In this document: piece by piece, positions 937-46,562 of the stretch | How the letters are laid out: every line of letters starts with the position of its first letter | Numbering within the stretch: position 1 is the first letter of the stretch | Translations under genes and position numbers: made by a program | The notes under the pieces: model-generated | What the model saw: only the letters and a program-made list of their open reading frames with translations | What the model was told of the DNA's origin: nothing | Database searches by the model: none | Source of the DNA: Apostichopus japonicus | Lineage: Eukaryota > Echinodermata > Holothuroidea > Aspidochirotida > Stichopodidae | Reading direction: 5' to 3' | Assembly (NCBI RefSeq): GCF_037975245.1 | Contig: NC_092566.1 | Location: 16,471,001-16,535,000 of the forward strand | DNA: 64,000 bases

Positions 937-1280
937 ATGTTTACAATGTTACAGCACGTCATAACGTAACATCGCACAATGATGATACTGGATCATATCC
1001 ATGCAACCTTCATCAAGAGGAGGTTTACATCGCACCCGCTGGTCTGCATCTGCTTCTCACCATAGAGTATTTCAACACTTACAACGGAGACTACCTTAGA
1101 GTTGGAAATGGCAATGTAACAAACGAAAGAAATATTCTTCTGTACGATCGAGGCCATTTTATAATGAAATACGTGTTTTATCAGAGGAAAACGTTATGTG
1201 GTTGGCCTTCACATCGGATATCTATAACAGCTATGGTGGTTTCAGCGGTTTCGTGGAACCAGTTAACATGACGTTAGATG
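937..1280 (+). pseudogene. CUB exon copy 1, with a 1-nt frameshift
   Basis: CUB-like module exon, phase 1 at both ends. It begins after TTTCCAG and ends at GATG/GTAAG. It is nearly identical to the exon at 2203-2547 but one base shorter (344 versus 345 nt). The missing base lies between about 1146 and 1156, after the LLYDRG stretch. Reading through gives a shifted tail rather than the MWL...FSGFVEPVN ending, which continues intact in another frame from 1196. Either the exon is skipped (harmless, because it is symmetric), the gene copy is damaged, or this is a sequencing error. Confidence 0.75.
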
Positions 1281-3336
1281 GTAAGATAAATCATGCTTTC
1301 GTGTTCTTTTGTATTTTCTCCAGAGAGGCAAAACAAAAAGAGGAAAGGAATATACATGGCGAATGTTCGGACATTGTTACCATGTACCTTATACTCGATG
1401 TATAAAGTCCTAGTTGTCGCTTATTAAGTTACATTAATAACATTTGCAATACTTAGGCATGCATACGTACATGAAACCAGACCCAAACATGACACCGAAT
1501 AATAAGCATCCACTTTGCTGCACATACATTACAACATATGAAACTATTATAATATCGCAATTATCCCGATGTTATTGCTGCACATAGGGTACAATGTAAA
1601 GTTGGTGAATCGCCTGGTCCAAACCATGGCTTAACAACAAGCAATTGTGACTTGCAAAATTTGAATTTGAATTACGTCTATAAGTATAACTCTTTGCAGT
1701 TGAAACTACAGTTTGTCTTTCAGCCAATACATAGTGTACGTGCAATGTTCATGTGATCACGTAGTTTGGTCTTCTTCTCGTCTTAAAAGGGAATGTGCAG
1801 TAATATCGTATTATTTGCCATCAGAACTCGATTGTGAAAACGATTTCAGCTGTAAAAATGGAGCATGTATATCGCAGAGGTCTGTTTGCGACAGTCTTGA
1901 TAACTGTGCTAACGGTTTTGATACGACAGGTTCCATCCTCTCAGGTTAGTTATGTACAAAATAACAATAATATATACAGTTTATAACGAAATATGTTGTT
2001 TTGTCTTGTGTTTAATTCCGTTCTTTTGTGTTTATTTCTTGCGATGATAAGGAAACGTAAAAGTATAGCAAGAGGCACTACAACTCTTCGTTGAGGCATG
2101 AGTGATTGTAAGACTGCACCGTGTTGGTAAAATCAACATAATTATTTGAGCAGCTGAAAGAAACTGAATTTGAAAACTGAGGATCCTTATATTTCTTTCC
2201 AGATGTTTACAATGTTACAGCACGTCATAACGTTACATCGCACAATGATGATACGAGGACATATCCATGCAACCTTCATCAAGAGGAGGTTTATATCGCA
2301 CCCGATGGTCTGCATCTGCTTCTCACCATTGAGTATTTCAACACTGGATACGGATACTACCTTAGAGTTGGCAATGGGAATGTGAAAAACGAAAGAAATA
2401 TTCTGCTGTACAATCAAGGGACATTGAATAATGAAATACGTGTTTTATCAGAGGAAAATGTAATGTGGCTGACTTTCACATTGGATAACTTTAACAGTTA
2501 TGGTGGTTTCAGCGGTTTCGTGGAACCAGTTAACATGACGTTAGATGGTAAGATACATCGTGCTTTAGTGTGCTTTTTTATTTTCTCCAGAGAGGCAAAA
2601 CAAGAAGAGGAAAGGAATATACATGGCGAATGTTTTGACATCTTTACCATGTACCTTATACTCGATATCTTAAGTCCTAGATGTTGCTTATTAAGTTATA
2701 TTGATAACATTTGCAATACTTAGGCATGCATACGTACACACAACCAGACCCAAACATGACACCGAATAATAAGGATCCACTTTGCTGCACATACATTACA
2801 ACATATGAAACTATTACTACATCGCGATTATCGCGATGTTATTGCTACACAGAATGATACAATATCAAGTTGGTCAATCGCCATGGTCAAAACCATAGTT
2901 TAATATCAAGCTTGTGACATGCAAAATTTGAATTTGAATTACGTCTATAAGTATAACTCTTTGCAGTTGAAACTACAGTTTGTCTTTCAGCCAATACATA
3001 GTGTACGTGCAATGTTCATGTGATCACGTAGTTCGGTCAGCTTCTCGTCTTAAAAAGAAATGTGCAGTAATATCGTATTACTTTTTGCCACCTCCACATC
3101 GGATAATTTTAACCATTATAATGGTTTCAGCGGTTTTCGTGGAACAAGCGAATATGACATTTGACCGTTTCAATATTTGGTTACTCACGCACTTTGTGTG
3201 CATTTTTAAACTAATCTGAATATTTCATAGTGATAATTCAGGTTACACTGAGCAGAATACAGGAAATGCTTAAATAAATTGGATTACCGACGTACCCCAT
3301 TAAATTTAGTCTTTATTGTCACACGCGTTTACATAA

Positions 3337-3407
<71 letters not shown>

Positions 3408-5984: not shown

Positions 5985-8900
5985 ACTCGGTCGAAGTACA
6001 TTCATTTTACTTTCATACGAGATGGCATTGGTCGTAACATTTAAAGAACCTTTAGCTTATGAAAAATCTATATCTAAATTATATTCTTATATAAATCTAT
6101 ATATTTACTTCTTTTCAAAGTCATCCGATTATTCTTACTTTATTTTTACTATATACTATACATTTTATTAAACATCATATACCAAGTTATTGAAGGTCGA
6201 GTTCTCAACGCCTACAGGTGTGACTGATTTAGAAATGTGAACCAGTAACTTCAGTGCATGTTACTTCTGTATGAAATATTTACCCACAGAGCTCCAATGC
6301 GGAACCGAATTCAATTGTCAGAATGGCGCATGTATACCACACATCTTCGGTTGCGATAATGAACAGAACTGTGCTAATGGTCTCGACACTATTGTTACCC
6401 TTTCAGGTAAGTGATTACTATTTTTTAAATTGCAAAATGCAAAGATATACAAAATATCATAATGAAACTGGGGAAACAAATACAAACCAATTCACATTCT
6501 GTGTTAACGCATTAATAGAAACAGAACATGTTTCTTGGTTAACAGTTAACTTTGACCTTACAAATGCTATCATATAAACCAAAGATGGTGGTCGGGTTGT
6601 GTCCCCTGAAGATATTTTGAAAGTTACCAACACACATTAGATACAAACACGTACTAAAGTGAGCCCACAGTCTGCACATGGCGCGTACTTGCTGGGCAAA
6701 CTAAAAAAGTGATATGTTCCTCCCTGATTGTAAATTTCCTCCAAAAAAATCAAAGGAAGGTGCTTATTTATCAAGGGGCCTTATGGTATGACGCAGTTCC
6801 AGTTTACCATATTCATATTTAAACTAGAGACGTGCAATTGGCCGATGGCAAGCTCTTTGCAACTCCCAGATGATGGTAATGTAACACGTTTTATATATTT
6901 TGAGTAAATGACCCTGCCAGTTTTACACGGCATCCATTATTATTACGACATGTTATATGAGTAACAGCGTAACAAATGGATTGTGCTTAAATGTGGGCTA
7001 TACTATGACTATTGGAACACAGAAAACGTTTAATTTGGTAACCTTTATAACATTACGCAGGCGCGTATCCAGGATTTTCTAACCCGGGGGGCGCGAATTA
7101 CTATCTAAGCGGAGCGCCACCATCGGTTGGCGCGCAGCGTACAAGAAAATTTCTGGTTTTGATACCCCCCAGATCACCGGAAACGGCACTTCTTGGGCTT
7201 GAAATGACCAACCAGATGTACACTTTTTGCCTGAGAACCAAGTATTTCCTAATAGTTTTTTTTTTCCATCCATAACCTTTTTGAAGATTGTCAACCCGGC
7301 ACACGTCATGTTCGACCTGATCGCATCTCCTGTGGGTCTTTGCTTTTGTAGGTGATTCTACGTCGCGGCCCACAATACCCGTCAGCCCCACTTTTCAAGG
7401 TTTTAAGCCCCAAATTTGTTCAGAATTTGAAAATTCACATTTCTCGTGAATAAACTCACTTCAAAACATACCCATAATGTTGTACAAAATTTCATCTATG
7501 GACAACCAATATAGAAAAACTTCCTTCAACCCCTAACAGACCGGTCAAAATTGCACGAGAAGAGGGAAGTGTGATGCAGAATGTTGGTCAGAAATTTTCG
7601 AAAATTCAGACACAGTTAATTTATTGGTGTACAAATATTAAACCTCTTATAACGGCTATTATAAAACTTGGTTGCAGGAAATGAAAAACTAGCAGATATT
7701 TCCGAAACCGAACACTACACACATAGGCGTAGGAGGCGCGGCGGCAGTGGCGGAGCTAGGGGTATTGGTCATGAGGGGCGAGAATGGTCTGTAGGGGCGC
7801 TTTCGACACTATCTAAGCGGAGCGCCACCACTGGTTGGCGCGTAGCGCACAGAAATGTTTTGAGTAAAGATACTCCCTAGATCGCCGGAAATGACCCTTT
7901 TCAGGGCCTGGCTAATTTGCAGATAAACGGAGAATAGGGTGTCATCGCCAAATTACACCAACAAAATGTGACAAATGTCAATAAGTAGATGAGAGCGCAA
8001 TAAAAGAGTCAATAATGTAGAATAAGTAAAAAGTGGTAAAGAGCTGAAAAAGGCGCCAGCAGTCCATTTGAGTCCGTCAGGGGGGGGGGCATCCGCCCCC
8101 CTGACCGTATGGACGCTCCGCCACTGCGCGGCGGGGGTGCAGCCCCTAATTCGCCATTACTAATGTAAAAGAGAGTTTTGACATAATTGGACCTCCATGC
8201 TTTTTATACATCTACCTGAGACATGTCGTTGTTTACGTTAGCATCCCGCGGTATACTGCGCAATTTTAACGGACCGTACGGTACATGATGGCATGCGATG
8301 TAATAACCGATGCTTGCTTATATGATATTGAAATTGACACGTTAAACGCGCGCTTCGCGCGCGAAAATTGTTGGTTATTTTTTCAAGCGAGTCGGACAGT
8401 TTTGAGGATTTTCATCCTGGAACGCCATTTTCATGCTCACTGATATGATGTGATATCTGCTGTTTGCGTTACAAATTCGAACAGGCGCGTAGCGAGGAAT
8501 TTGCCAAGGGAGGGGCGAAGCTTGTAGGCAAATTATCTAAGCGTAGCGCCACCATAGGTTGGCGCGAAGCGTACAAGAAAATTTTGGACGAAAATGTCTC
8601 CCAGATCGCTGGAAATGGCACTACCAAGGACCATTTGTTAGCGCGAGGCGCACAAGCAAATTTTGGCAGAAAATGTCTCCCAGATCGCTGGAAATGACAC
8701 TTCCCAGGCCTTGTAAGTTGCATCTAAGCACTTTCTATTTTGAAATTACTTAGCGATATCATTTAAAAAAATGCTGAATGGGGGGGGGCGGTCGCCCCCA
8801 TCCCAAAATGCGTCATGTTCCCCGACGACACGGTCGAGTTCGAGACCTAGCCACAGTTGGTTTCATAGCACAATTCTACACACGCGTTATGATAGACCAT

Positions 8901-11900
8901 ATATAGTATATACATAGATCATTAGTGAGAGAGGAAAATGGAAACTTAAAAAAAATGGAGTTGTCGGTGTAAGGGGTAGGGTGAGGCACACTTTTACGAA
9001 ATCATTGATCCGTCACTGGCTACCCTTCAGCGCTGTAATGATGTCACTGTTCCTCTTTCTCTTCCCGGTGTCTTCGCGTTTTTCTTTTACTCCCTCCTTT
9101 TCTCCTTCTTCTCTCTTTCTTCTTTTTCTTTTCCCTTCCTTCCTATCCTCCTCCTCTTTTCCCCCTCTTTTTTCCTTTTTTCTTCTCTTTTTTTTCTCTC
9201 CTCTTTTTCTTACCCGGGGGGCGCGCGCCCCCAACGCCCCCCCCCCCTGGATACGCACCTGTTACGGGTTTCTATGGACAGATTCACGTAGATTCACTAA
9301 AAATATTAACTAATACTTAGCAACAGCTAACTATATACATATTTTCTACTTACAGAAACTACATATGTCAACCAAAGCTACAACGTGAGTTCGTATATGT
9401 TTGACTCTGGCGGGTACCCGTGCAAGCTGCAACAAGAGGAGTTTTTCATCGCACCCGATGGACACAATATTCTTCTAACTATTGAATATCTATTTACGGA
9501 GGAACTGTACGATGTGCTGAGAATTGGTAACGGGAATGATATCAAACAGGGACTTCTTCGGGAATACTCTGGAGGACCATTTATTCATGAAATAGAAATA
9601 TTATCAGAGGGAACTATGATGTGGTTGACACTCATTGCGGACGGTTCTATTAATTCTATAGGTTTCAGAGGTTTTGTAAAATCAGTAAATGCAACAGCAT
9701 ACAGTAAGTGAATTCATTTTCGTCCTAATTTTCGTTAAAAGAGCAATATGATTTATTAGTAACTTATGCAAGATTTAATGACCTTTGAAGAAAGTCTTGG
9801 TGCTTATTAGTTTGTCTACACGCTCGTTTCAAAGGCATCAACTTTCCAAATGATAAGTTATGACTTCGCAGGAACGTTGATAACAATCAAAAAAAGTAAT
9901 GTTCTCCCTAATGTTGGTTATATACAAAATAATAAGATATATTAAATTACGAAAGAAAACCCTTTTTGTGATCGATTAATAGATTCCAGCAAAATGTTCT
10001 TTGTGATTGATAATCATATAAGAGAATGTGTCATTTATAGTCAAACTCTTTTGCCAAAAAAAATACTACATAAAAGTATTTTATCATAACAGCAGAACAG
10101 AAACCACGATCACATCGTAGATGTATGGAACTGTGGATGGAGAGAAATGACTTCATTCTCTTTACCTGCAGAATTAAACTGTGAAAAATTAACTTTAATT
10201 GTAAGAACTGGGCGTGTATATCAATAGCGTAGTTGTGCGACACAATTGTTCAAATGGATACGACAAAGCAGGTTGACTCAAGTTAATTGCATAACAGTAA
10301 TTACATAACATCGATTTTAGCATTGACATGTAAAGGAGAAATGGAATGATAATGTAACTTACCCGAAGGATTGAATCTCAATGATCGTAAAAGATCGTTA
10401 AATATATACTCGATTAGGATAGTTTATATGCAGTCTTTTTACATGCTACGTGATATAGGGGGGCTGTTATTGTAAAGATCTGCACTTCTTTGTCCTTTCT
10501 GATCAGGTTTTAGGTTCGTGCATGCGTCTGTTGTGTATTTCACATGTCCTCAAAAATCAACTTTAGGCACGGCTTCAGGTAACCTTCGTTGACTGATGTC
10601 GTTGCTGTTTTAATACAGTGCGGAATTGTCTTAAATATATATGATTAGTTTGAATTCTCTCGACAGTAACAAGCAACTCTCAATTTTAAAACTAAGGTTA
10701 AATGCAGTTACACTTTCATTTCAAGTTTAAGTTATCTTAAACTTAAAACATTTTCGGATGGAAATTCAACGGTAATGATAGTGCAGTGTGTCTTTATGGA
10801 GAGTGGATTTCTGAAGATGCGTTTTGCAATGGTTAGGAAGAGCGACATGTTTTATAATGCACCGAAGCAGTGTTATTTATCAGCGATTGCTTTCTATTCA
10901 TATAATTCATTGTTTTAACATTTACATGTCATTGACATAATACCACTGATTAATGGATTGCATTATTCCTCCTACAAGCTTTACTGTGTGCTGAACCACA
11001 TCCACCAGATGAATTGGTTTCTCACCGTCCTGATTTACCAGAAGGGCAGTTGTATCCAAATGGAACTGAAATTATGTATGAATGTCCGGAAGGGTGGAAA
11101 TTCAACGGTAATGATAGTGCAGTGTGTCTTTATGGAGAGTGGACTTCTGAAGATGCGTTTTGCAAAGGTTAGTAAGAGCGACATATTTTACAACGCACCG
11201 AAGCAGTGTTTTTTTTATCATCGATTGCTTTCCATTCATATAATTCATTGTCTTAATATTTACATATCATTGACATAATATCACTGATTAATGGATTGTA
11301 TCATTCCTCCTACAAGCTTTACCGTGTACTGCACCACATCCACCAGATGAATTGGTTTCTCACATTGCTGATTTACCAGACGGGGAGTTGTATCTAAATG
11401 GAACTGAAATCATGTATGAATGTCCAGACGGATGGAATTTAAATGGCAATACGAAAGCAGTGTGTCTCTACGGAATGTGGACGAACGAAAACGCCTTCTG
11501 CTCAGGTCAGTCAAAGCGCCTTACGGCAATTGAAGTACTGTCATTTTCTCAGTCACTCAGTATACAGCTATATAATTTATTATCGAATTCTAAACATGCA
11601 TGTGGTCTCGTCGAAACTCGAAATGCTTATATCAATTATTAGTTTTTAGGAGTATAGCGATTGGCTTAAAATTTTAGTGAGTACATATGAAACATATCCA
11701 TTTCGATTTAAGTATATATTAAAGTTAATTTTGTTGTTTTGTTACAACGACTGATCTCCACAACTCTGTTATCCATCATTATATATTACCTATAACATTA
11801 ACGTTATGATATCAGAAACTTCAATATGATCATATGGTTATTGTAGTCTTGCTCTTTTACAATTTCAGAGATACTTCCCACAATGTGTCCATTTCAAAGT

Positions 11901-14900
11901 CTTTCTTTTTCTGGTGTGCAACTTACATTTCGGGCTACTTACCCTGGATCACACGTTAACTCAATACAAAACTGCAGTGAAGAATCTTCTAACGGTAAAT
12001 GCTCCTTTCCTCTTCCAGAAATGTTCCCATAGCTTATTGCCGGTGGTTACATTGATTAGTGTAACAGGTGCAAAGTGAACTTGAAAAGTTTGGGTTCATT
12101 TCTCAGTTATTAGAAAAAAGGAAATTGGTTCAAATTGGCAACAGATTTGTTGTTTGCTTACTTTAATCTTGCTTGTGATATGATAATACTTAATTTAATG
12201 CAGTATTTCATCCAGCCTTATATGGTGTTCTCTCTTATAATTAGCGTATCACCCTTTGGCCATGAGAGTTTGCGATGAGGATGGATGGGAGGAACCAGTA
12301 CTCACAACATGTTACACTCCAGAAGACGCGGCACATGCGGTGGAGAGAATTACCAATGTGAGTGTCTTAAGTTACATCGCTCGATGTGGACACTTAATTT
12401 CCCCAGCTCTGCTTTAAAATGAATAGAATGAAAACAGTACGATGGCTTTCGAGATGGACGCGTGTATTTCATGACATCGATTCTGTTGTCAATGATGTCA
12501 TGCAACTCTTTGACTTGCCACCATCTCCTTACCACCTGCTTCGCCTGCTCTCAATAACCACTATGATGTCAAGTTATATATTTAATCATATTCCAGTGTT
12601 TTAATTATAGGCTGCCTTTGAAAGAGATCGACGGGCATAATTTTATACGTTTGATTTTTTTCTTTACAATATTAAATTAAAATTTAGTTACCATAGTCCC
12701 AGTGATCATTTTAATAGCAATACATTGACTTATCTCGCAGACGACTGTAACTGAGGAAAATGTCGATGAGGTTGCCAGCGATCTAGCACTTGTAACAACT
12801 CAGACGGAAGATCTTGACGTATCACAGGTAGAAGATGTAGCCGAGTCATTACGGGACATTGCTAATGTCAATAGTTCTTCAATAGAAGTAAGTTATGCCT
12901 GACATTAGGTGCAATTCATTGTTTATGTCTATGAGAGGGCGTTGTGGTAAATTGGTTAAGGCAGTGAACTTGTGATCTAAGGGTAACAGGTTCGAGGTAA
13001 CTTCTAAATATAGTTGCGTCCGCCGGTTTGCGGCTGCACCCTATGGGAAGTCCCCCAGGGGACACGTGGCTGTGGTGCACTTTGGTGCCGCAGGAGAGAT
13101 TGTTTGAATTGTGCACACTTTGGTGTGTAGGCGTGACAAGTTACCAATGACCAGGGCTAAGTTACACATCCGGGACAGCAAGTTTGCGTATGAGGATGTG
13201 CATTAACCAAGAAACAAGAATCTACGCTTGTAAAGCTGTGAAGATGTTCGTTATTTACCTGTTTTTACGTTTATCTTAAATAATGGTATCCTATCATAGA
13301 CTTATTTTGCTGAATTGAATTTTTATTTGTGAAATCAGAGATAGCAGTTTGAACGCATTAGATCCATCGCCGCAGGTTACCATTTATATCAAAAGAGAAA
13401 CCATTTACCACTGTCAATCTCCGCTCAGTTGCATAAACTTCGATGTCAATGGCCTCTTATGGAAATATTTTGCGTCCAGATAATGCCGGCATTAGCCGAA
13501 GATTTTAGTGTGTAGCACCGATTACATGCGCATGGCTCAGTTTCCATCGTTAAAATTCAACGGTCAAATTTAATATCAGTATTTCATTAACTAATATTTC
13601 TGATTTAGAGCATATGAAAGGATTTTTTTTTTACAGAATCCCCTAATTTCACGATAAACATTACCCGCTCATTTATATTCATTTTAAAGGTTACAGAGTC
13701 CGTAGTAGGGACGGTGAACAACCTAATGGAAGTAAATGAAAGAAGTTTGGAACAAACTGTCGGATCTAGTAGTGTCATTGTATCCTTGGAACAGCAAATA
13801 TCTAATGTTCAAAAAAATCCTAACAACTTTACGGACGTACAACATAACGTTGGCGTTCAAGCAGTTAAGTTAGACCCAGACATAACCAAGGCGGTCACAT
13901 TTATCAATTTACCGCCAAGTAATACTACTGGCCGAGATGCTTTGAATGCTGATCTTGCCGAGGAAAACACACGGCTATTTAACAATAAGCAGGAAGTACG
14001 AACAGATAACAGCACAACATCGATTTATGTACCATCAAAGATATTGGAACTAGCATTAGAAGGTAAAGATCACTATTGAAGCGACGTATTTATACTATTA
14101 ATTTACGACGAAGTATCACTGCAAACGTCGATCTCAATCAAACGTCAGTCATGTCAATTCTTTCTTCAAAACCCATTTCACAATATACTAATCATTTTAC
14201 AATATTGAATTAACAATGAACGATGTATATTGGACAAACAATTGAGAGGCTGTCACAAAAAAACGTAATCAACAATCTTGGGAATTTAATTTACTGTTCA
14301 TTTGAGAAGATTCATTTTGCAAGATGTTTCGCATGAAATTACATATAGAACCAAAGAAACATGTCATAATTTGAGTCCAATGTTTTGTTTTATTTCCCTA
14401 AATCATAAATACTCATATATACCTTGTGCAAAATCTTAGAAAGTAATTATTAACGTTTTTCCTGTTTCAGTTGATCCAACTATTACTCACGTTCCAATTA
14501 GCTTCTTCATTTACAAGGATTCCCGATTATTTCAAACGAGTCAGGTATCATCGACTTCTGCACCCGAGAAAGACAATATCAAGAATAGACAAGAAATTGC
14601 AAGTCAAGTTATTGCAGCGACCTTAGAGGTAGCTAACGTTGTCATTAAGGATCTACCGCCTGGAGATTCTATCGTTACGAGGTTTACAATAGCACCCGTA
14701 AGTCCATATAGGGCATTTACTGTCCACTAAATACAAAGTAAACACTTGCATTATTCATAACGAATTCTAGCATTGTCGTGTAACTAATATCTATCCAACA
14801 TTCTGTCGCATACTTGTTTAAGATGCATAAGTGTTTAGTTTATAGAGAAATACACAATTACTGTTAACAATTCACGTGGACCTGCAGTTCCTGGTTAAAG

Positions 14901-27960: not shown

Positions 27961-28629
27961 AATGAGTTTGATATAAATATATATATCCATATATATAACT
28001 ATAGATATATATTTATATATTTATCGAGATTACCATAGGTTGTGATTACTTACGCACAGTTATATATTATGTTATGTGTTTTCGATTTTATTCATTCCTA
28101 GCAAATGAAATGTTCTACAACTGTACCATATTTTTGTTGTCTTTCTAAATCTATAAATCCAACTGACAATGCTAATATTAACTTGCTGACGATCAAAGTT
28201 GACATATTATATGTAACCTATCATAATATAAGTTAATGGATGTCGCCCATAGAACAGCTATATTATTTTATTAAGTTAAAGTTTATTAAGTTGTCTGGAA
28301 CGCTAATGCGCTCAAATATTGGCCAACATGTGTACTTAGATCCCTTCAATAGATCATAGTCCATTACCCATTTTCAACAACAGAACAGTAAACTTACAAC
28401 TTTATCTCCCCTTTATCGCAATGTTTCAATGCTGTTTATTATATTAGTAAACTTGTTTGTATTTTACACATACTTGTTAGTAGGTGGTATATCATTTACT
28501 ATTATCGACATATCATATTTGCAACATTTTCCGACTGGCAACGACATAGTTGGGCTGTTTTCTATGTAACATTCGGAGAGGAGAAAAGCCAGCTAAACTC
28601 CCACAGAAGGCTCAGTAACATTCCACAAA
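27961..28629 (+). other. 5' flank of receptor gene 2
   Basis: AT-rich sequence from the satellite edge to the initiator Met, with a short (TA)-rich patch near 27975-28022. The ~70 bp before the ATG (GGAGAGGAGAAAAGCC...) look like 5' UTR. I see no clear TATA box or other promoter element. Confidence 0.4.
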
Positions 28630-28702
28630 ATGAATCTTGGGAAACGTATCAGAATATGTCGGTGTTTACTCTGGTTTCTGATGTGCTGCATCTGTTTCGG
28701 AG
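28630..28702 (+). CDS. Signal peptide exon of receptor 2
   Basis: 73 nt, ending in phase 1 at TTCGGAG/GTAAG. It encodes a basic start (KRIRICR) and a hydrophobic core CLLWFLMCCICFG, typical of secretion signals. No other upstream Met in frame is needed. Confidence 0.75.
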
Positions 28703-34700: not shown

Positions 34701-37700
34701 AGTAGGATGGGAGGATCCAGAACTAGAGACATGTTTTTCCGCTGAAGATGCCGAAGATGAGATTGAAAGAATAGCAAATGTAAGAATGAAAAGAAATATC
34801 TCATTTTATTTAGATCAACCATATTTAAAGATTACTGGGATTTTTCCGGCGGGTATAGTTTCTGCTACAAGGAATGGGCTAACTATTTATCCTCCCGTGA
34901 GTTGATTACGTGTTAAGATATGAAGCCTTGATGCACTCCAAATAAAGGTGAATGATTAAAAACATTTTGATATACTGAGGAGAGGCTTTGGAAATAAAAG
35001 ATGCGGGGTTGGTCTTTGTTTTGAAAATGTACAATCACTATATTAAGGGTACCAGGATTAATAAAACAACATGCAAGGTAAAAACGCACGCCAAGTATAA
35101 GTAAAACAAATTATGTACGTGACTGATTTCATATTCATTCACCAAAATCTGGAGTACTTCAACATACTTAGTCCTTTTTAATGAATAGTTAATCACTACA
35201 AATGTTATGGTGACCATAAACTGGTATATTTGTAGCTGTGTCGTAATACTACTTTTCCTCCAATTAAACGAAAATTCCTATTTTACTGTTTGGTAGACGA
35301 CAATCACGGAAGAAAACGTGGAGGAAGTTGCTAGTGAGTTAGCTCTTATTACGACACAGACGGAAGACCTTGACGCTTCAGAAATTGACAGCGTTGCAGA
35401 TTCATTAGAATCCATCTCTAATGCTAACAGTTCATCTCCAGAGGCAAGCTCTTCCCATGTTTCCTTCACTTTTTAGAATCCATGTATAAGGAATTTGCAA
35501 AATTCTGAACGATACATCAACAACGACCAACCCAGTGTTGTATTAACACTTTTCACTGCAAACAAACCTGTATTTATCTCATGGGTTTAAGCTATAAAAA
35601 AGGCAAAGAAACGTACTTCGAAAGCAATATCCAAAGCATCTGCCAACCAAATAAGTTAAATTTTCCAACAATTAATTTATTGTATTAAGATAACAACATA
35701 TTTTTAAATTCCGTACAACGTTTGTTGCTTCTCAAAGCAATCATCAAAAACAGTGGTCTATATAGCTGTCATATATTGTTATTGCAGGGATGAAGTAACC
35801 ATGACTACTCTGCTTATTAGAATCAGAGCTGAAGCTGGTAGGATCAGTAAAATTGTTCAGGTTGACTAGTCACATACTGTTTGTATGTATGTGTGCGTTT
35901 TTATTTATTGTTATATACTTCAAATATGGTCCATGTGAGACAAGTGTTGTAGTGAGAAGTGCAACATATTTGTCAAAGGTGATCCCAGGCCAACTCTACA
36001 GAAGTTCACAGTTAAAGAATCTCTAAAAATTAAAAGACATAAAAATAATTGTCTACCGGCTAGTATCAAGTTCTCAATGGAGTTTTCCTGAATAACGAAA
36101 CACATCAGTTACTGCTCAGGCTTTTAGAGCAGCCCAATAATATTTGCTGGTATGATAATTAATAAGCAGCTATACAGTGTTTATGCTAGGTATGAGAATC
36201 ATCCCCAAATGTTGGACAGACGATTGATAATCGACTTAAATTCTATAAAAAAAATTAAATGTCTATTGTCAGGGAATTCCAGAGCCTTTTCTTTTCTACT
36301 TATAAACAGCGACTGGTATTCAGCCATTGAAAAGCTTAAATTTCGATCACTGCGTACACTTGCTGATATTGAACAATATTTCAATTATGTAACTCATTTA
36401 ATAAAACAAACAAGACTGATCTATGTGACCATAACATAATCCATACAGTGCAATTTATTGAACAACATTTTTCTTAAGAAGTGTTTATAGCTGTACCTTC
36501 TGACAGATGAATAAACTGATTCTATGTGCTTCATTTATTAGGTAACAGAATCTGTCCTTGGAACAGTTAACAACTTAATGGAAGTGAACGAAACTGAATT
36601 GGTAGAAGCCGACGCTTCGACCAGTGTTATTAACTCACTTGAACAGCAGGTCTCTAATGTTCAAGAAAATCCAGAAAATTTTACCGATGTTCAGGACAAC
36701 GTTGGAGTAAAGGCAGTCAAGTTTGACCCGGAACTTACTAAATCGATTACATTTATCAATTTAATTCCAGAGGAATTCACGGGGAGTGATGTACTCAATA
36801 CCGATCTCTCGGAAGAAAATGCTCAATTATACAACGAGCGATCGGAAGTGCTTTTAAATCGCAGCGCATCTTCTATTTACATTCCTTCCAATATTTTAGA
36901 AATTGCGCTACAGGGTAATTGTTCTTATTTCATTTAAGTCATTAAAGTCATTAGTCCCTGACGGGTGGGTGGGTATTAGGCAGGCCCCCACCCTGCTTTG
37001 CTAATAAAAACACAATAGCTCCCATTCTTATTAATCATAAGACGTGCCTCTTTGTGTTAATGAAATCAACCTAGCTAATCCCACTTTTGTAATGAAAAGT
37101 GTTCTTTTGTTATTCAAAAGTGACCTTTTGTTGATAAATTAAGAAACCTCTAATTAGAAAGTGTCTTTTTTTGTAAAATAATATTTAATCAGTACCGTTG
37201 TGTTGTCATACATTCAAATACTGGAATGTTTTGAGGTGATTTGGCGGTTTGGTTCCTGAAAGTCATATCATGTCCCACTGCTCTTCAATGCCATCACTCC
37301 CCCTTACACGTTGTATAATGTTTACAATTATTTCAAGATGTTTTTCCTTCATGAACAATCATACAAATCTTGTAGATCTTCCCCTTTACTTTTCTCAAAA
37401 GAGCAACCGAACTTAACGCAGGTTCCAATTAGTTTCTTCTTGTATAAAGATTCACGACTCTTTCAAACAAGTAAGAAGCCACCGACTGGAAGTCCGGACT
37501 TAAATGTGACACTTAGAGAAGCAATATTGAGTCAAGTGATTGCAGCTACCCTTGAAATCGACAACGTAGTAGTTGAAAATCTGCCTCCAAATTCATCGGT
37601 TATTTCAAGGTTTCAACTATCAGAGGTAAGTTTAATCGGTTCTGAGATTAAATATAAAGCAACACGCAAACATTAAATCGTCTTAAAATAGTCACTTCCC

Positions 37701-37814
37701 ATTAATTCTAAAGAAAATTTGTAAAATGAAAAAGACACAAATATCTTCGAAAACCTGATATAGGCCTAGTTATTTATTTATTATCTTGTGTATATTTATA
37801 TAGAATCCAAAATA

Positions 37815-37882
<68 letters not shown>

Positions 37883-40800
37883 CGTCCCCGTTCTGGCGTA
37901 GTGACGAATGTTCAAAATGTGAGTTTTGAGAAAACGCGGTTTAAAGATTTTCACATTTTGACTTTAGTATAGCGTAATTAAAAAAGGATATTTTGTACCG
38001 AAAGTTATCAATATTTTAAATATAACAAATAGAACTTTGAGTTCTCATATTTGTTGCTGATCGAAAAATTTCTAACAAAGTAGTAATTTTAGTGTAAACA
38101 TATTCGTCGTTATGTCATGTCATTTTCAGCTAATTTTAGACATTCGTCAAACATTCGTCACTATGCTAGAACTAAATTTTGAAGTTTCGTCCTGTCACAG
38201 ACTTGTATTCGTCACTTTTATGTGTAGTGGCTAGGGTACACCGTGAATGTTCACTGTCACATGGGGAGAGGAAGGGGAAGGGATATGATGAAATGTGAAC
38301 ACATGCAGTTGCAAAACTAATATAGTTCCAGTGGCATAATCTGTTAAGTCGGAACTCTTATAAAGCTCACAGACTACGGAAAATTGTGTGCAATTATTCA
38401 TTTTCAAGTTAGAGTATTACGTGAAATGTCTCTGACAATAGTTTCTAAGTATCTTTCAAACGCTTTGGGAAGCTTTTCCACTATAGGCCTACTATCCCCT
38501 TAAACGGAATGTGAAATTTTTGTTACGCTCACAGGCACGTTCATAATATCCAACCCAACCCGTGTGAATCCTCAGATTTAAAGAAGGAAACAAATGTGCC
38601 ATTGTTCAAGTGTTTCCAAGTTGTACTATAGTATGTTGTTCCTTCTTTATATTTCCTTCCAGTATAAACATAAAAAAATTCTTACGCTCACAGGCACATT
38701 CATAATATCCAACCCAACCTCGTGTGAATCCTCAGATTTAAAGAAGGAAACAACTGTGCCATTGTTCAAGTGTTTTCAAGTTGTACTGTAGTATGTTGTT
38801 CCTTCTTTTTATTTCCTTCAAGTATACATATAAAATTTATAGAGAGGAGTCATATAATACCTCAACAAGAAGAATAACTCATATAAAAGTTTTTTTTTTA
38901 AGATGATAGGATACCGAACAGTCCAAGAATAACTAATAGAAAAGGGGAGAAAATGTCAAGATGATAGGATATCATATAAAATACATCTACACATACAAAA
39001 GTAAATACATAAAACGATATAACAAACAGACTACAACAAACATTCTAAGTGCTCGAATGGAATGTATAAAGCAGCACGGTAAATAAATGAGTTTCTGTAA
39101 ACTTACGTTCGGTATTTTGTGGGGATTCCTTAGATTTCTGCTCGATTTGTGCAGGAGAATTTTTAGTACAGTATACAAAGGGTGCTTCTTATCACTGATG
39201 ATCCTGTTAGCCATTCTTGTAAACTCAGGTCTTGCCGCAGCATTTACTTGTTCTAAAAGAATATGGCAATCTAAATTAAATATAGCCGATGTGTATTTAA
39301 GAAACTTCATTCTTCTTTCCTTGCTTTTTTTTGCAATATAAAATGGTACCAGACAGGCACTCTATAGATCACATGTGCCAGGTTGAATAAAAGTATTGAA
39401 AACATTTTCCCTAGCATTTTGGTTAAAGAAAGACACAACGTAAGCCACACTAGATACTTTGTAATATACCTATTTTAATACCTTGATGCTTTGCAAGAAA
39501 AGGTCAAACTGTCGTCGATGTATACTCCAAGTACTCAGTTTTGGAGGTTCTAGCCACCTCAGCTCCCTCAATAATAATACGTTGCGATCTTGATAGAATG
39601 AGATCTTCATGTTTTATGGTTTTATTTTTAAAAACAAATTTCCTTTATTTTTGGGGTTACGCAATAAAGTCTTGCGGTCACATGTTGGAACTATGTCATT
39701 TAAAGAACACTGAAAATTTCATTGGTCAGTTTCAACAGAGCTCTTAGGACTTGTGCATGATACAGCAGTATCATCGGCATATTTTGTAACAGAAATGTGT
39801 GAGTTTTACCTAATTTCATCAGTATATATGGTAAATAATATTGCATACAATGGACCCCCACCCCCAAGGCACACCCTTTATTTCCGATATTTCCGATAAC
39901 CCATTATCCAACTTAACTTGTCTGGACCATCCTTGAAGAAATTGTGTCAGCCAATGAAAAGACATGTTACTTTGATAAATCGTAAAAGATCCTTTATCAA
40001 TTGATTTGGCAAGACAGTATTAAACGCACTTGAAAAGTCAAGAAAAAGACCCCGCCTTTGTTATAATTCTTTCCTTACAATCTTAATGAGACATAATATC
40101 ATGGATTAATCAAACGTTTGATATGGATATGGATTCTTCGAGTGGCTTGCAACTTCCGCTCTGGAACAGCAAGTGCCTTCTCCTTTCTTATGTCAAGCAA
40201 CCTTATGGGTTAACAATCCCAATGTATGGAAACCAGGGCTGAGGGTGTATCAGTTTGGTGATGTTCATTTGGTTTGTATGTCCATATTCTGACTTGGTTT
40301 ATTTTTCCAAAAGGTCTGGTAAAACTTCCCCTATGATGCTGAACTTCTTAGTCTTTGGAAGAAACATCCAAGGTTCTGTCAAATCTGAAGGTTGCTATAC
40401 AAATTTTCTAGTAATTCGGTCTAAACACCCCCTCCCTCCCCCTCGTCTTTTTAGCAAAGTAACTACTTAAGTATAAACTATGCTAGTACCTTCCAAAGTT
40501 TCATGTTAAAGTATGTTACCTTCAAATATGTCACTAGGTAATACTAAGCCAGATAAAGTTAGTTTTATTTTAGGCTAGAGTAATGCTCGTGATGAGCAAA
40601 GCCGCCAAAAGCTAAGAGACACCGTACTTCTTTAAGTAGATGTTACACTTTTAACGTTTCTTTACATATCAAATTGAAGAACGGAGGAAGTCTTAAGTGG
40701 AAATGAGCTGGCGATTGCATGTTTTAATTGGTCATAATACTGGTATTTGTTTATTGTTTACATTCACATTGAAAAGGAGCAGGAAACCAATATATTACAT

Positions 40801-41696
40801 TATATCGTTCCCCCCCCCCCCCCCCATCATCCCAAGTGGCACATGACATTACACATTGCCACGACTTTTAAAAACCAATTTACTCCCGTACCGTGCAAGA
40901 TAATGGACTTATATATTTAAGATATATTTTAGGGAAAAGTTCATCACAAGGATCTTGGTGATATACGTTCATTGTGATGGTTTGGGATTCCTTCCCTTCA
41001 ATCCTTAGGTATGGTTAGGCTAACTCCAAGAATGGCTTAAATTACCTAAACTTGGTCCAGGTATTAAAATTTGAGTGATTTATTCATCATATTTATACGA
41101 GTTACACCCATTGTCATCAATGTCCGTCAGTGACTTACACCACCTGTTTCTTCATTTACACACAGCTCTAATTAAATGTACCGACACTGTTACACCGATT
41201 CAGTAGAGATAAATAGCATTACTCCAGTCTACTGTCACTAGCTACTCGCGCAACAGATACAAGAATCGAATGTACTGCAATCATAACACTAGGCTACTAT
41301 TCAGGAATATTATTGTTGACCCACTGGTCATTCTGTTTTCACGAGTTATGCTATCGTGTATGAAATGCTGCATTAAGCAATTAAAGGTGGAAATAATAAA
41401 AATATTACCTTCCCATAATCCTTGGTGTTTCAAATGGCAGTTAGATGTATGGACCTTAGACAAATTGTGTTACTGGGTGGTTTTATTGATGACTAAAGTA
41501 TTCGTCAGTTTGTAAAAACGAGAGTGGGCCCTAGGTGGACATGCGTCAGTAATGAGTCAGAAAAAAACGAAAAAAAATAGACAGCTTTAAAACTTATAAC
41601 CCGGCTGAACCGATTCTTCACCCTCGAAATAGGTAAGAGCAATATTTAACTCAATTTCGCCAAAAGTGCACATTCGCCACTACGCGAAAACGGGGA

Positions 41697-41759
<63 letters not shown>

Positions 41760-42293
41760 CTATTTTGGATTCTATATAAATATACACAATATATATATAT
41801 ACACACACAAGATAGATTTAGATATATAGATATATTATCTTAATTAACTATATAATAATATGCATAATTTCAAATTTATTATCACAGTCACTAAATGCCA
41901 ACGAGACTATCTTATACCGAAAGTGTGTTTTTTGGGTATCACCCGAAAGAAGTGCCGAGGATAGCTACTGGTCTGAGGAGGGTTGTCATATGACCGTGGA
42001 TGGCAACCAGACTGTTTGTACATGCAATCATCTAACTAGTTTCGCCGTGCTTGTGGTAAGTTAATCATTAACTTTGAAATCTGTGGTTTAGATTAATGGG
42101 GAAATTCTCTTCTCTGATTAGAGCGGGACTAACTTAAGGCTGTGGTACCGGTAGCAGGAAAGACGGGAAAGAAAGGGGAAACTACCATAGTTCTCTGAAT
42201 AATCATAAGATAAGTAAATGAATGAACAAAGCAAAATTGACTGGGAAATTATATATATATATATATATATATAATAATATATAATATATATAT

Positions 42294-42373
<80 letters not shown>

Positions 42374-45300
42374 GAAAAGGGCAAATCATTTCCTGGCTGG
42401 GAACGGGATTTGCACTAGTGACCTCTGGATTCCATTCACAATTCTCTACCAACTGAACTATCTAGCCCTTAGTCAGTTAATAGGTGAAGATCCCTACATA
42501 GCCGTTCTTGCTACTAAGAAGTTGGTTTGATAGAAAACCATGTTCATTCAATACCATTATATGGAGAAGTTTCAACCAACTGAATGCATAACGCTTCGCA
42601 GTCGTTGATATTCCCTAAACTAAAATATTTTAAAAAATAAGCAATTTTTGTAGTAAAACTTTTATTATTTTCTCTTAAATGCAATGAGAGCGCTGCAGCT
42701 TTCCACGGCACGCACGATGGATTGCATCGTAAAGTTTTCAGTACCATGGCCTCAATTTTCCTCGACCCTAAGAAGTTCCCTCATGGTTTTGTTCGATGGA
42801 AGCTGTCATGGCGCAGCCTAGAGTTGGTAAAAAATCGATGTCAGTGAGAGGTATTTCTGGGGAATTGGGTGCCAAAAGAGGGCAAGGGAAGAACTATGGG
42901 GTCTTCAATGACGATACTAAGAGAATTCGACAAATTGTCCCAGTGAAAACCTCATCAAACACCGCTCTCCCTCTAACGCTGTCACCGAAACAGAAAATAC
43001 ATTTACACTTGGAATTCCCCGTACCTACACTACGTCACAAGCAAACAATTACCCACGTGACAGAACAACCAATGGCGTCAGAGGAATCAGTTCGAGCAAA
43101 GACTCACACAGGCATTTCCTTCATCACGTCCTCAGCTCTCTGTCAGTCCTTCTGTTTATTTGTCCGTTGTTCAGTCATTCTCCCCACCCCCTCCCTACAC
43201 CCCCTTAGGAGTAGTAGTACGTTAAGTCTCGTCTATCTGACATGCTCAGTGATTAACCTCCGCCACGTATCACGATCTTGCGCAAGGTTTATTGCTTCCT
43301 TGAAATTGTTAATGTTAACGTTCTTAAATTGCGACTTTCCAAGCAAGGTAGTCACGGGCCTTCCTGATGGTTTAGCAGGATGTCTCAATGCTTCTCTTAA
43401 AGCAACCTTTGCTGGAGCGTCCTCCTGAAGTCTTGCTACATGACTGAAAAATCCCCCCTCCCTACCCCCTTATACATCATTCCATTTCTTTAATATTATA
43501 CGATATATCAAATAATGTAGAAAATATTGTTATACCGTTCGTTGTGTGATATATTGGTATTGGCATTACAGTCTTTACGTTAATTACTGTCTCTTAATTA
43601 ATTTCATCTAGGGTATTGGTACAGCTCTACCCCCAGCGGCCATGATTACACTAACCGTTATTACCTGGGTAGGATCTTGTCTGTCTATAACTGGCTTAAT
43701 TGTTTGCTGCCTGACCCTCGTCTTGATAAGGTAAGTTCAAAGATAGTTTAACTGGTTATCATCACGGGCAACCATAGCACAGTTTTAATCCATTAAACTA
43801 ACCATACCGCTCTTGCTTTACATATTCACCTCACTCGTCCGTCCCCTCATCACTCCTCACTCTCATTACCCTATATACCCATCTCTTTTCAGGTCTCAAT
43901 AATTTGACTTAGCACACTCTTTAACACAGTTTATCATATTCTCTTCAACTAAACCATTCAGGCCTCCCAACTATTCTACGTATGTACTTGGATTCTGGCT
44001 GAATAACATTTGATACCTTCTGTTATCATCGACGATGTGGACGCATATGATCTTCCGATGTTAAAACGGAAATCATCATGTGGCAATCATATGGACTTTT
44101 GGTTATTTGTTCAATATCTATTTATTTCTCTTCAGGTCCAGTCAGCTGCTGTGGCTTTTCAGAAATTTGGTGTCATTTACCATATTATGATATATAACGA
44201 ATGTTGGACAATAAACAAAAGCTACCGCTATCCATTATATCTTCAAAAAGAATGAACATTTGTATGCATGTATTCTAGATCCTCCTGCAATCAGGAACTC
44301 GCGAAGAAGCCTCATTGGCTTATCAAATCCGCAAACCGACCAAAGTCAGTCTCTAACATTCATATTTAACGTCCATGAACTGTTAATTGTCAACAACTCT
44401 GTAACTGGACGACATACATTCATCTTGGAGTGACTCGAACCGGGGACCTTATGATTGAAAGGCACCGGCATTCACCACTGAGCTAACACTCCTAGCTAAC
44501 ATTTGAAATAGTCATGTCACCCTTCTCATTTACAATTCACTCTTCTTAGGTAAACAACCAAATATATGACTGCCATAATTGGAGGAGAGTGTAGTTGTTG
44601 TCTATATAATTAAGAGAGCTTATAACAAAATCGTAGTCAAATAACTCAATATTCCCATTTGGGTATAATGATGTCATTGCAATACTGTACATACGTACTA
44701 TGAAATACACTTTGCAACCAAAATCAATATTATTTTCGTTTTCTCTAATTCATCATTTAAACAAAGATTGTTAAAACTTCGTTTTATTCTCCTATAGAAA
44801 ATTGAGAAGGAAACAGGCTTCTCAGATACACCTCAACCTCTTTGTTTGTCTGATCGGTTTTTACATTACCTTTTTGGTGGGAGACCTCTTGAAAGACAAT
44901 CCAGTCCATTGCAAGAATGTTGCAGCTAGTATTCAATACTTTTGTTTGGCCACTGTAGGATGGATGTCGGCAGAAGCTGTGAACATGTATTATCGACTCG
45001 TGCGAAGAAAAAACATAGCTTATTTCATTCCGATCTCTTGTGTCATAATTTACGGTAAGCGATACTTTGAAGTCATCTTTTAGCTATTAATTTATACAGA
45101 TCAGCTGACATGAAATTTGGGGGTTTATAATTCATTACGGTGAGCGATAGTATGAGTCCTGCTTACAATAACTTTGTGTATTATTGATGTTAAAATGACT
45201 CGTACTAACAGACATCATATTTCTATACTTAATATTTAACTGATCATACCTCGTGATATATCAGGGTGTATTACCTTCACAAATCATAATTACGTCTTAT

Positions 45301-46562
45301 ACACATCATATATGTTGATTATAAATCGATCCGTTCCAGTTGAAGAGCGGTTTCTAGATCACTGATTCGAAAACAAAAGATTTTTCTATTGTCTTTCTTT
45401 TCCAAGGTTTGTCACTTGTGCCAGTCATTGTAGTGTTTACCATCTCAACATTTGAATCAGAAGGATAGTAAGTTATGTCAACTGTGTTTATCTCGTTTTT
45501 ACCTATTTTATGTATAAACTATTGCATGTTATGCGAAGAATTGAATTAACAGGCCCAAATTTTCAGTCTCAGTAAGGTAACAATAGAGTGGACTATACTA
45601 TATGTTTTAGCCTTTTTGTTGTACGGTATTTATAAATGGAAAAAAGAGAGAAGAATTATATACTAGAACAGTACTTTCAGGATACCAAAGCCTGTGATGT
45701 ACCAATTGAACTACTTACCAACTAGGTGATAATATTAACTTTTGAGTGTTATCTAAGTGTGCCAGCAGTCAGAAGCCGTATGTACCTTGTGTAGCAAAGA
45801 ACGCAATCATTGGCTGAGAAAAGATCTCGAGCCAGAGCCCTCAGAATCACAAATCTCCTATCCCCACCCCCCCCCCCTCTTCCCGCCCTCTCTCGCATTC
45901 CTTTTCTCCCTATATGTATGTAAACGTTTTGAAAAATGATAAGATAAAAAACTTGTTCACATTTTCACTTTAGGCGCAACATTTGTGTCACATATACTCT
46001 AACGACTGAACTCTTTTCCTTATTTTCGTTCTCACTCAGTTGTTTTCTTCCTCCTGGAAATTCACTCTACTACGGATTTCTTCTGGAAATACTAATTATG
46101 ACGCTGTTCAACATGATCATTTTTTCAATTGTGGTTCGTAAAGTCGTCTTTAGACCAGTAATGTCAACGAGTTCAACGAGTTCGAGAAAGGAAGTCATCT
46201 CCAGGATTCAAATGCTGGTAACTTTTTGGATCCTGCTTGGTCTGTCCTGGAGTTTTGGATTTCTCGCAGTTATACCAAACAGGAAGACAATCACTTTCGA
46301 AGTTCTCTTTTGTATATTCACTTCACTTCAGGGACTGATCCTAGTCGTAACAATCTATGTTAAAAATCCTGAAATTCACGAGGCATTTAAAGGAACGAAA
46401 AAGCTATTTTGGATGAAGATAGGAAGCTCTGACATGAAGAGCACCAACTCTGACGGAGTCCCATCATTTTCAGAACTTGTCAAACTGCAATCCTTCAAAA
46501 AAAGCGGAGAACTAAAAAATGCATCCAAGACCGATAGTTATTCAACGAAAGATAACAATTAG
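28630..46562 (+). CDS. Adhesion G protein-coupled receptor 2 (mucin stalk/HormR/GAIN/7TM), complete
   Basis: Exons: 28630-28702 (signal peptide), 30885-32651 (Thr-rich stalk), 33578-33700 and 34667-34779 (HormR-like), 35297-35443, 36542-36914 and 37402-37625 (GAIN), 41888-42055 (GPS), 43612-43730, 44798-45054, 45407-45467 and 46040-46562 (7TM and tail, stop TAG 46560). The total is 3948 nt, an open frame of 1315 codons, with phases 1,1,1,0,0,1,0,0,2,1,2 equal to gene 1 from the HormR exon on. The start was chosen because MNLGKRIRICRCLLWFLMCC is a good secretion signal and its donor phase fits. One donor is GC rather than GT (35444). An AATAAA at 47065 is a possible poly(A) signal. It is a surface receptor with a long O-glycosylated stalk and no CUB, LDLa or sushi module. 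Tandem paralogue of the gene at 937-18844. Confidence 0.88.
28703..30884. other. Intron 1 of receptor 2, with repeat debris
   Basis: No exon recognised. GC-rich patches at about 28815-28870, 29030-29050, 30085-30175 and 30340-30360 (homopolymer G or C runs, AGGGCCGTACTCACGGGG) resemble decayed ends of the GC-rich DNA-transposon repeats seen elsewhere, but no paired termini could be matched. A GC-rich ~250-bp block at 29780-30010 is unassigned. Confidence 0.4.
30885..32651 (+). CDS. Mucin-like Thr-rich stalk exon with 12 tandem repeats
   Basis: A single 1767-nt phase 1-1 exon encoding about 589 residues. Twelve ~41-43-residue units carry VDTTTQT(D/N)P, TTTVTTSDSTTTFPTTLSAT and TNKRTTTMEETT. 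A longer subtype replaces the middle with MTTIIIPFDSTTTFPTT. Dense Thr and Pro without cysteine predicts an extended O-glycosylated stalk. The units are very similar at DNA level, implying recent expansion or gene conversion; copy number is likely polymorphic. It occupies the place of the CUB/LDLa/sushi block of gene 1. Confidence 0.85.
33578..34779 (+). CDS. HormR-like exons of receptor 2 (33578-33700 and 34667-34779)
   Basis: Encode VPCPAEIITYSGVQLSFPKT, QKCSNDS, RLCTEVGWEDPELETC and AEDAEDEIERIAN, aligned residue by residue with receptor 1 (exon sizes 123/126 and 113/113). The first acceptor (CATCCCAAG/CAATATT) lacks a strong pyrimidine tract, but frame and homology fix it. Confidence 0.75.
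35297..37625 (+). CDS. GAIN exons of receptor 2 (35297-35443, 36542-36914, 37402-37625)
   Basis: Sizes are 147, 373 and 224 nt versus 147, 373 and 227 in receptor 1. Conserved stretches: EENVEEVASELALITTQTEDL, VTESVLGTVNNLMEVNE, SIYIPSNILEIAL, VPISFFLYKDSRLFQTS and SQVIAATLEI. The first exon ends at CCAGAG/GCAAGC, a GC donor. Confidence 0.82.
37815..37878. repeat. (TA)n microsatellite in left inverted end
   Basis: About 32 TA units inside the left inverted end of the 4-kb intronic insertion. The matching tract in the right end is at 41699-41760. Confidence 0.95.
38523..38833 (+). repeat. Direct duplication of ~150 bp
   Basis: Two copies (about 38523-38671 and 38687-38833, offset about 164-166 bp) share CGCTCACAGGCAC, TTCATAATATCCAACCCAAC and GATTTAAAGAAGGAAACAA with few differences. 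They lie inside the 4-kb insertion. Function unknown. Confidence 0.85.
38987..40051 (-). pseudogene. LINE reverse transcriptase relic
   Basis: Minus-strand fragments in LINE order: FLDFSSAFNTV (motif A, about 40000-40051), a decayed GVPxG-like motif near 39860, YADDTAV (catalytic motif, 39761-39781), TEYLGVYIDDSLTF near 39500, and an open C-terminal piece 38987-39310 with NAAARPEFTRMANRIISDKK. Several frame changes separate them. It is nested in the 4-kb insertion. Confidence 0.75.
41699..41760. repeat. (TA)n microsatellite in right inverted end
   Basis: Counterpart of 37815-37878, in the right inverted end of the intronic insertion. Confidence 0.95.
41888..42055 (+). CDS. GPS motif exon of receptor 2
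   Basis: 168 nt, phase 0-0: RKCVFWVSPE, YWSEEGCHM and TVCTCNHLTSFAVLV. The GPS cysteines, tryptophans and HL/T cleavage site (42029-42037) are intact, and the tethered peptide is identical to receptor 1 over TSFAVLV. Confidence 0.9.
42249..42368. repeat. (TA)n microsatellite
   Basis: About 120 bp of TA with a few AA or ATA interruptions in the intron after the GPS exon, adjacent to a tRNA-like sequence. Confidence 0.95.
42395..42468 (-). repeat. tRNA-like sequence (SINE head or tRNA pseudogene)
   Basis: On the minus strand, 74 nt with A-box-like TAGTTCAGTTGGTAGAG and B-box-like GTGCAAATCCC. The ends pair over only four positions (GGCT/AGCC) and the arms do not fold cleanly, so a functional tRNA is unlikely. 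Confidence 0.5.
43233..43455 (-). pseudogene. LINE ORF C-terminus relic
   Basis: Minus-strand open stretch ending TAG at 43233: FFSHVARLQEDAPAKVALRE, ALRHPAKPSGRPVTTLLGK and EAINLAQDRDTWRRLITEHV. The GH(V)xR..., GRP... and LAQDRxxWRxLI signature is the common C-terminal end of non-LTR retrotransposon polyproteins. It is a 5'-truncated insertion in the intron between the GPS and TM1 exons. Confidence 0.75.
43612..46562 (+). CDS. Seven-transmembrane domain and tail of receptor 2
   Basis: Exons 43612-43730 (TM1), 44798-45054 (TM2 and TM3), 45407-45467 (TM4) and 46040-46562 (TM5-7 and tail). Shared marks: QASQIHLNLFVCLIGFY, the TM3-start cysteine in VHCKN, TVGWMSAEAVNMYYRLV, YCFLPPGN, FWILLGLSWSFGFLA and IFTSLQGLILVVTIYVKNPE. 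The tail (about 60 residues, Ser/Lys-rich, ending KDNN) differs from receptor 1, suggesting different intracellular partners. Confidence 0.9.
44427..44492 (-). repeat. tRNA-like sequence
   Basis: Minus strand: GGAGTGTTAGCTCAGTGGTG (A-box-like) and CCCCGGTTCGAGTCACTCC (B-box-like), with 6-bp terminal pairing GGAGTG/CACTCC. The T-stem cannot pair, so this is a tRNA-derived relic or SINE head rather than a working tRNA gene. Confidence 0.5.

Follow-up and report, generated by a model that had tools for sequence, protein, structure and literature searches.

How does a signalling receptor gain very different sensing parts? The question is raised by two adhesion G protein-coupled receptor (GPCR) genes of the sea cucumber Apostichopus japonicus, here called gene 1 and gene 2, which lie on the plus strand of contig NC_092566.1 (C6 below). 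The window, that is the whole stretch of DNA analysed, comprises 64,000 nt (C6:16471001-16535000; positions given without a contig name are those of the window), and the genome searched for relatives amounts to 671,581,487 bases in 35 contigs. A sequence-only reading of the window had proposed that the two genes are duplicates over their signalling half and that their ectodomains, said to be unrelated, result from a wholesale replacement. Our analysis makes it likely that they are two paralogs of a local cluster, in which a fixed signalling half is joined to a stack of symmetric exons that varies from gene to gene.

The shared signalling half

Ten exons with placed splice sites, from a HormR-like exon to the stop codon, are common to both genes and would constitute the fixed half (HormR-like, GAIN, GPS and seven-transmembrane, 7TM):

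Gene 1, 11869..12357, plus strand: HormR-like region (exons 11869-11994 and 12245-12357), placed by splice sites with a weak Pfam signal.
Gene 1, 12741..15215, plus strand: GAIN and GPS (exons 12741-12887, 13690-14062, 14471-14697 and 15051-15215).
Gene 1, 15645..18844, plus strand: 7TM and tail (exons 15645-15751, 16317-16594, 17768-17828 and 18373-18844).
Gene 2, 33578..34779, plus strand: HormR-like region (exons 33578-33700 and 34667-34779).
Gene 2, 35297..42055, plus strand: GAIN and GPS (exons 35297-35443, followed by an intron with a GC donor, 36542-36914, 37402-37625 and 41888-42055).
Gene 2, 43612..46562, plus strand: 7TM and tail (exons 43612-43730, 44798-45054, 45407-45467 and 46040-46562).

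Intron phases agree in ten out of ten shared exons and 380 of the 676 aligned residues are identical (56%), in agreement with the proposed duplication. The exon sizes, which had been described as near-identical, are equal in four of the ten (113 nt, and the 147/147, 373/373 and 61/61 pairs already quoted in that description) and close in the others (126/123, 227/224, 165/168, 107/119, 278/257 and 472/523). The conservation of GPS and 7TM is likewise borne out, both lying far over the Pfam cut-off in each gene (7tm_2, 110.2 bits in gene 1 and 101.2 bits in gene 2, cut-off 20.6; GPS, 56.9 and 60.5 bits, cut-off 22.5). The GPS site CNHLTSF, with its candidate HL/T cleavage site, is found in both, and the predicted combination of a secretin-like 7TM domain with a GPS motif places both genes among the class B2 adhesion GPCRs. 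GPR128_GAIN_subdomA reaches 22.2 bits in gene 2 (cut-off 22) and has no match in gene 1. In a search with gene 2, the closest solved structures were the adhesion GPCRs G2, L3 and G6, the PDB match to ADGRG6 spanning residues 86-631.

As to the HormR exon from which the earlier comparison was counted, it stands as the homologous start of the shared half, and its name is weakly supported: Pfam HRM stays under the cut-off in gene 2 (16.9 vs 26.2 bits) and has no match in gene 1, and GPR128_N is below it in both (21.9 and 18.1 vs 27.2 bits). We therefore write HormR-like for the region that precedes GAIN. Synonymous sites are saturated between gene 1 and gene 2, with 348 of about 466 differing, so the duplication is old and a recent one is ruled out.

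Two different upstream parts

Both genes change over at one phase-1 intron before the HormR-like exon, as had been proposed, and their ectodomains indeed differ beyond this point. Gene 1 carries CUB, LDLa and sushi exons, listed here as far as they fall in the window:

937..1280, plus strand: CUB exon with phase 1-1 ends, one base short and frame-shifted relative to three aligned sister copies.
1825..1944, plus strand: LDLa exon, phase 1-1 (29.5 bits, cut-off 24.1).
2203..2547, plus strand: CUB exon, phase 1-1 and open (Pfam CUB 12.8 bits vs cut-off 21.4).
6290..6406, plus strand: LDLa exon, phase 1-1 (33.0 bits, cut-off 24.1).
9353..9703, plus strand: CUB exon (22.7 bits, cut-off 21.4), with an approximate start, the acceptor not being settled.
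10172..10275, plus strand: decayed LDLa exon with an in-frame stop, broken in the copy gene D too.
10756..10834, plus strand: half sushi copy, partial and probably non-coding.
10979..11167, plus strand: sushi exon 1, phase 1-1 (29.7 bits, cut-off 20.7).
11317..11505, plus strand: sushi exon 2, phase 1-1 (27.1 bits).

The Pfam cut-off is thus exceeded by both intact LDLa exons listed, both full sushi exons and one of the CUB exons, and all upstream exons of gene 1 are of phase 1-1 wherever both ends are placed. The CUB identity of 2203-2547 comes from a 13-exon profile, which reaches the CUB domains of neuropilin-2 and cubilin with E 0.005-0.008. Gene 1 reaches beyond the window: its CUB/LDLa exons continue for about 13 kb to the left, starting near C6:16457853, and a signal-peptide candidate lies at C6:16450516, about 20 kb to the left; it was the sole signal-peptide-like exon in a scan that demanded a phase-1 donor, and gene D has preserved both its reading frame and its donor. 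Gene 1 as a whole has six full-length CUB matches (one frameshifted) and one 20-residue fragment, five intact LDLa exons and one broken, and two sushi exons. An intron of gene 1, between a CUB and an LDLa exon, also holds a reverse-transcriptase element (3402-5916). Its open frame comprises 289 residues (RVT_1, E 4.5e-9), and an inverted copy of the element's own end, mostly 92-100% alike, is present.

Gene 2 had been given a single mucin-like exon of 589 residues. This exon is present, and a candidate signal-peptide exon must be added to it:

28630..28702, plus strand: candidate signal-peptide exon of 24 codons with a phase-1 donor.
30885..32651, plus strand: mucin-like exon of 1767 nt and 589 codons, phase 1-1.

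The former is the only candidate in 12 kb when a phase-1 donor is demanded, against a mean of 0.1 in 20 shuffles. The latter is Thr-rich (44% Thr, no Cys) and has 11 repeat anchors at a spacing of 43 or 44 residues. Joined to the ten shared exons, the two give one open frame of 1315 residues.

We searched gene 2 for decayed exons of the other kinds by profiles and tblastn and rejected the idea that it hides any, as nothing significant was found. Upstream of its shared half (18845-33577), cluster profiles (30 CUB, 26 LDLa and 12 sushi copies) gave no relic (best E 0.73; for comparison, the sushi of gene H, which is in the profile, scored E 4e-27), nor was there an IgGFc-binding relic (best E 0.29).

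A cluster of paralogs with mixed ectodomains

A genome search with the GAIN exon of gene 2 (124 residues) gave 52 places. The 11 best paralogs, with at least 49% identity across at least 121 query residues, are gene 2, I, F, gene 1, D, E, a gene on contig C9, J, H, G and P, and ten of the 11 lie on C6, the exception being the C9 gene. On C6 they form three groups. Two are on the minus strand, D, E, F and G at 15.83-15.95 Mb and P and J at 16.97-16.99 Mb; between them, H, I, gene 1 and gene 2 occupy 16.38-16.52 Mb on the plus strand. For gene 1, gene 2, D, H, I and J the reading extended over most of the shared half (stopping before the final exon in D and J), and for the C9 gene and P over 5 kb upstream; module matches near E, F and G were credited to the next receptor downstream on the same strand, which we infer to be their owner.

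Upstream modules are distributed unevenly over these 11 genes. CUB matches of the gene 1-like kind are found upstream of five (gene 1, D, E, F and I), sushi in five (gene 1, D, E, F and H), an IgGFc-binding exon in five (F, H, I, J and the C9 gene, the last with E 1.2e-17; gene 1 and gene 2 show none), and a Ser/Thr-rich exon in four (gene 2, I, J and P, in a check that covered the genes other than E, F and G). Sushi copies recur at a spacing of about 336 bp and number 2 for gene 1, 6 for D (one of them frameshifted), 14 for E and 33 for F, the numbers for E and F being counts of matches alone; scores refer to the best 150 of 253 candidates, a set outside which the sushi of H falls.

Several genes have mixed ectodomains. 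In gene I, CUB/LDLa exons (17 CUB matches, one with stops, and 16 LDLa matches) are followed by two Ser/Thr-rich exons of phase 1-1 before the HormR-like exon, and an IgGFc-binding exon is present too. Gene F has CUB, sushi and IgGFc-binding exons, gene H sushi and IgGFc-binding exons, and gene J an IgGFc-binding exon with a Ser/Thr-rich one of 729 codons by its inferred splice sites; the end of a Ser/Thr-rich exon bearing the same repeat and donor as that of J is found in P. A wholesale replacement that gave unrelated ectodomains in a single event is not supported: sister gene I carries CUB/LDLa and Ser/Thr-rich exons together.

The intron before the HormR-like exon reads as phase 1 in all seven genes read there (gene 1, gene 2, D, H, I, J and P). 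Upstream of it, the CUB, LDLa, sushi and mucin-like exons of the window and the two Ser/Thr-rich exons of I are symmetric (phase 1-1), and phase-1 candidate sites flank the Ser/Thr-rich exon of J and three of four IgGFc-binding exons at both ends. As upstream exons with both ends placed are compatible with phase 1-1, any of them could be duplicated, lost or inserted whole without shifting the frame of the receptor.

Stepwise change, single replacement or old subfamilies

Since the mixed forms bridge the two types of ectodomain, stepwise gain and loss would be sufficient to explain both. Gene 1 and gene 2 would then be end states of a stepwise process in which symmetric exons are gained, lost and amplified in tandem, gene 1 having kept CUB/LDLa pairs and sushi exons and gene 2 one Thr-rich exon, enlarged through its internal 43/44-residue repeat, besides a likely signal peptide; unequal exchange and tandem duplication may have caused the differences between stacks. 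A replacement in one step, in which recombination in the phase-1 intron led one duplicate to give up all its CUB/LDLa/sushi exons for a mucin part, or to take them up in place of one, is distinctly unlikely: the sharp change at a single intron speaks for it, as does the lack of detectable relics of the other type upstream of gene 2, but the mixed architectures of I, F and J do not fit a single event, and saturated synonymous sites imply time enough for many steps.

A tree built from shared exon pieces of seven genes (gene 1, gene 2, D, H, I, J and K, the last a partial sequence with an unread ectodomain) sets ((gene 2,K)97,J)54 apart from H, I and (gene 1,D)100, and joins I to (gene 1,D) at support 66. 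Both types could accordingly be old, the CUB/sushi side and the mucin side representing ancient subfamilies with nothing swapped locally, and the presence of Ser/Thr-rich exons in J and P agrees with this. We regard it as a possible though doubtful explanation, which overlaps stepwise change insofar as the latter dates none of its main steps; the grouping has support of 54 only and includes K, gene I bears Ser/Thr-rich exons on the CUB side, and IgGFc-binding exons occur on both sides of the tree.

It is very unlikely that the gene models are wrong and that the mucin-like exon or the CUB/sushi exons are parts of other genes, with ends or splice partners elsewhere. The joints do come from genomic sequence alone, a frameshift disrupts one CUB exon and decay is seen in some modules. 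However, phase-1 joints, orientation and order recur in several paralogs, and the signal-peptide scan gave one candidate in each of the four upstream regions scanned, that of gene 1 being kept in D. A translated comparison of the upstream regions revealed no shared first exon.

Several points weigh against the stepwise reading. Exon joints of all genes are inferred from splice sites in genomic DNA, and E, F and G are known from search matches alone. The symmetry of the exons was partly built into the search, as the IgGFc-binding scan listed phase-1 sites only and the signal-peptide scan demanded a phase-1 donor, and the Ser/Thr acceptor of J was picked among candidates of other phases as well. 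Gene G has no CUB, IgGFc-binding or listed sushi match, and its GAIN exon lies about 2.1 kb downstream of a same-strand 7TM-exon match (C6:15954230 and 15956721); because of this, either the stack of G is small or the gene is a squeezed or rearranged copy, and the 7TM-exon match should belong to another gene. The Ser/Thr-rich exons may be of independent origin, because their sequence is of low complexity and gene 2 and J have different repeats. Finally, the grouping of gene 2, K and J at support 54 is too weakly supported to suggest what the ancestral stack was, and with such a tree and a single species compared the direction of ectodomain change cannot be fixed.

Divergence of gene 1 and gene D

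Gene D is the partner of gene 1 in the tree. Over eight signalling exons the pair has a synonymous divergence (dS) of 0.063 and a nonsynonymous divergence (dN) of 0.024 (dN/dS 0.37, given without a significance test). Synonymous changes affect 33 of 210 sites in four ectodomain exons vs 21 of 345 in the signalling exons (Fisher p 3e-4), and 20 of 153 if the first and last CUB are taken by themselves (p 0.013). In noncoding sequence the identity is 94.6% (2088/2207) in 13221-16573, 92.3% (724/784) in 11737-12931, a block that already holds the HormR-like and GAIN exons, 92.2% (1214/1317) in 9332-11518, where sushi copies are misaligned around 11100-11400, and 91% in two blocks to the left of the window; the step in identity is away from the HormR joint. 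These values hint at a younger signalling half, but gene conversion between gene 1 and D is a weak lead, because the identity gap is small and the block with the HormR-like and first GAIN exons shows no greater similarity than that of the ectodomain.

A more far-reaching proposal, in which recombination keeps the signalling halves alike while fast-changing stacks vary between individuals in module number and kind, would make the cluster a constant-and-variable system of germline-diversified sensors, possibly for microbes or self recognition; we consider it unlikely.

As for function, what is known of adhesion GPCRs suggests that the ectodomain would bind ligands or matrix and the GAIN domain would cleave itself at HL/T, so that removal or movement of the ectodomain would uncover a tethered agonist to activate the 7TM domain. 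The ligands, in matrix, in mucus or on cell surfaces, may then differ between stacks: the CUB/LDLa/sushi stack would offer many binding modules, and the Thr-rich repeat could form a long glycosylated stalk fit for mucus contact or force. The locus provides an exon-level view of how very different sensing parts can be gained, through a fixed phase-1 joint, symmetric exons and tandem amplification, and with 2, 6, 14 and 33 sushi matches in one cluster both the tempo and any within-species variation should be directly measurable.

Other features of the window and the genome

Tandem repeat arrays of about 325 bp lie between the two receptor genes (20428-26925 and 27260-27956). Downstream of gene 2, the window contains an exon of a Rolling-stone family gene (50534-51187; Pfam Rost, E 1.6e-13), a minus-strand open frame of 427 residues with no Pfam match (54623-55906) and a minisatellite array (61440-63198) with a 32-bp unit, or alternatively 18.9 copies of a 96-bp form. 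ARAGORN found no tRNA.

Elsewhere in the genome, two CUB matches (56% and 43%) lie at C6:7.23 Mb with no receptor match seen nearby, a reversed one at C6:15938910, and weaker ones on C21 (33-37% identical), C17 and other contigs. On contig C21, the regions 9676401-9729337 and 10.97-11.07 Mb hold a larger sushi run, mostly at 336-bp spacing, and these distant CUB relatives. An IgGFc-binding match at C17:30461917 lies about 12 kb upstream of same-strand 7tm_2 matches (C17:30474524-30476945), perhaps the same IgGFc-binding and 7TM architecture at another place.

Comparison with known systems

ADGRG6 (GPR126) has a single CUB before HormR and GAIN, together with PTX and SEA. Gene 1 resembles it in having CUB ahead of these domains and differs in its CUB/LDLa pairs and sushi arrays. 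GPR128 (ADGRG7) is treated as a separate family in the available part of PMC8584163; gene 2 weakly matches GPR128_N and GPR128 GAIN subdomain A, but the former is below the cut-off and the best solved structures for gene 2 are ADGRG2 and ADGRL3, which does not place it in that family. PMC2396169 covers exon shuffling and the LDL-A repeats of other GPCRs. No description of an IgGFc-binding adhesion GPCR was found among the literature matches listed, though one of them, a clam paper (PMC7430831), holds both receptor terms.

The expanded adhesion GPCRs of amphioxus also hold CUB, LDLa and other domains described there as absent from mammalian members, for which domain shuffling was suggested (PMC2246102, as excerpted). 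That work appears as a domain census, whereas the sea cucumber cluster gives exon joints, phases and copy numbers, with mucin-like and IgGFc-binding exons. EMR2 (ADGRE2) is a chimera with CD97 and EMR3, attributed to concerted evolution by gene conversion (Kwakkenbos 2006, as cited in the accessible text of PMC2720389); there too related adhesion GPCR genes have mosaic parts, but in the sea cucumber cluster conversion is no more than a weak lead and the modules differ in kind. The persistence of HRM/GAIN/TM as a unit while upstream domains shuffle is reported, in the portion available, by PMC12716839, which compares choanoflagellates and animals, whereas the variants described here share one contig. 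Domain shuffling before a conserved HRM/GAIN/7TM unit has thus already been described and the cluster is a clear further example, the interest of which lies in its completeness and in its series of sushi and CUB copy numbers.

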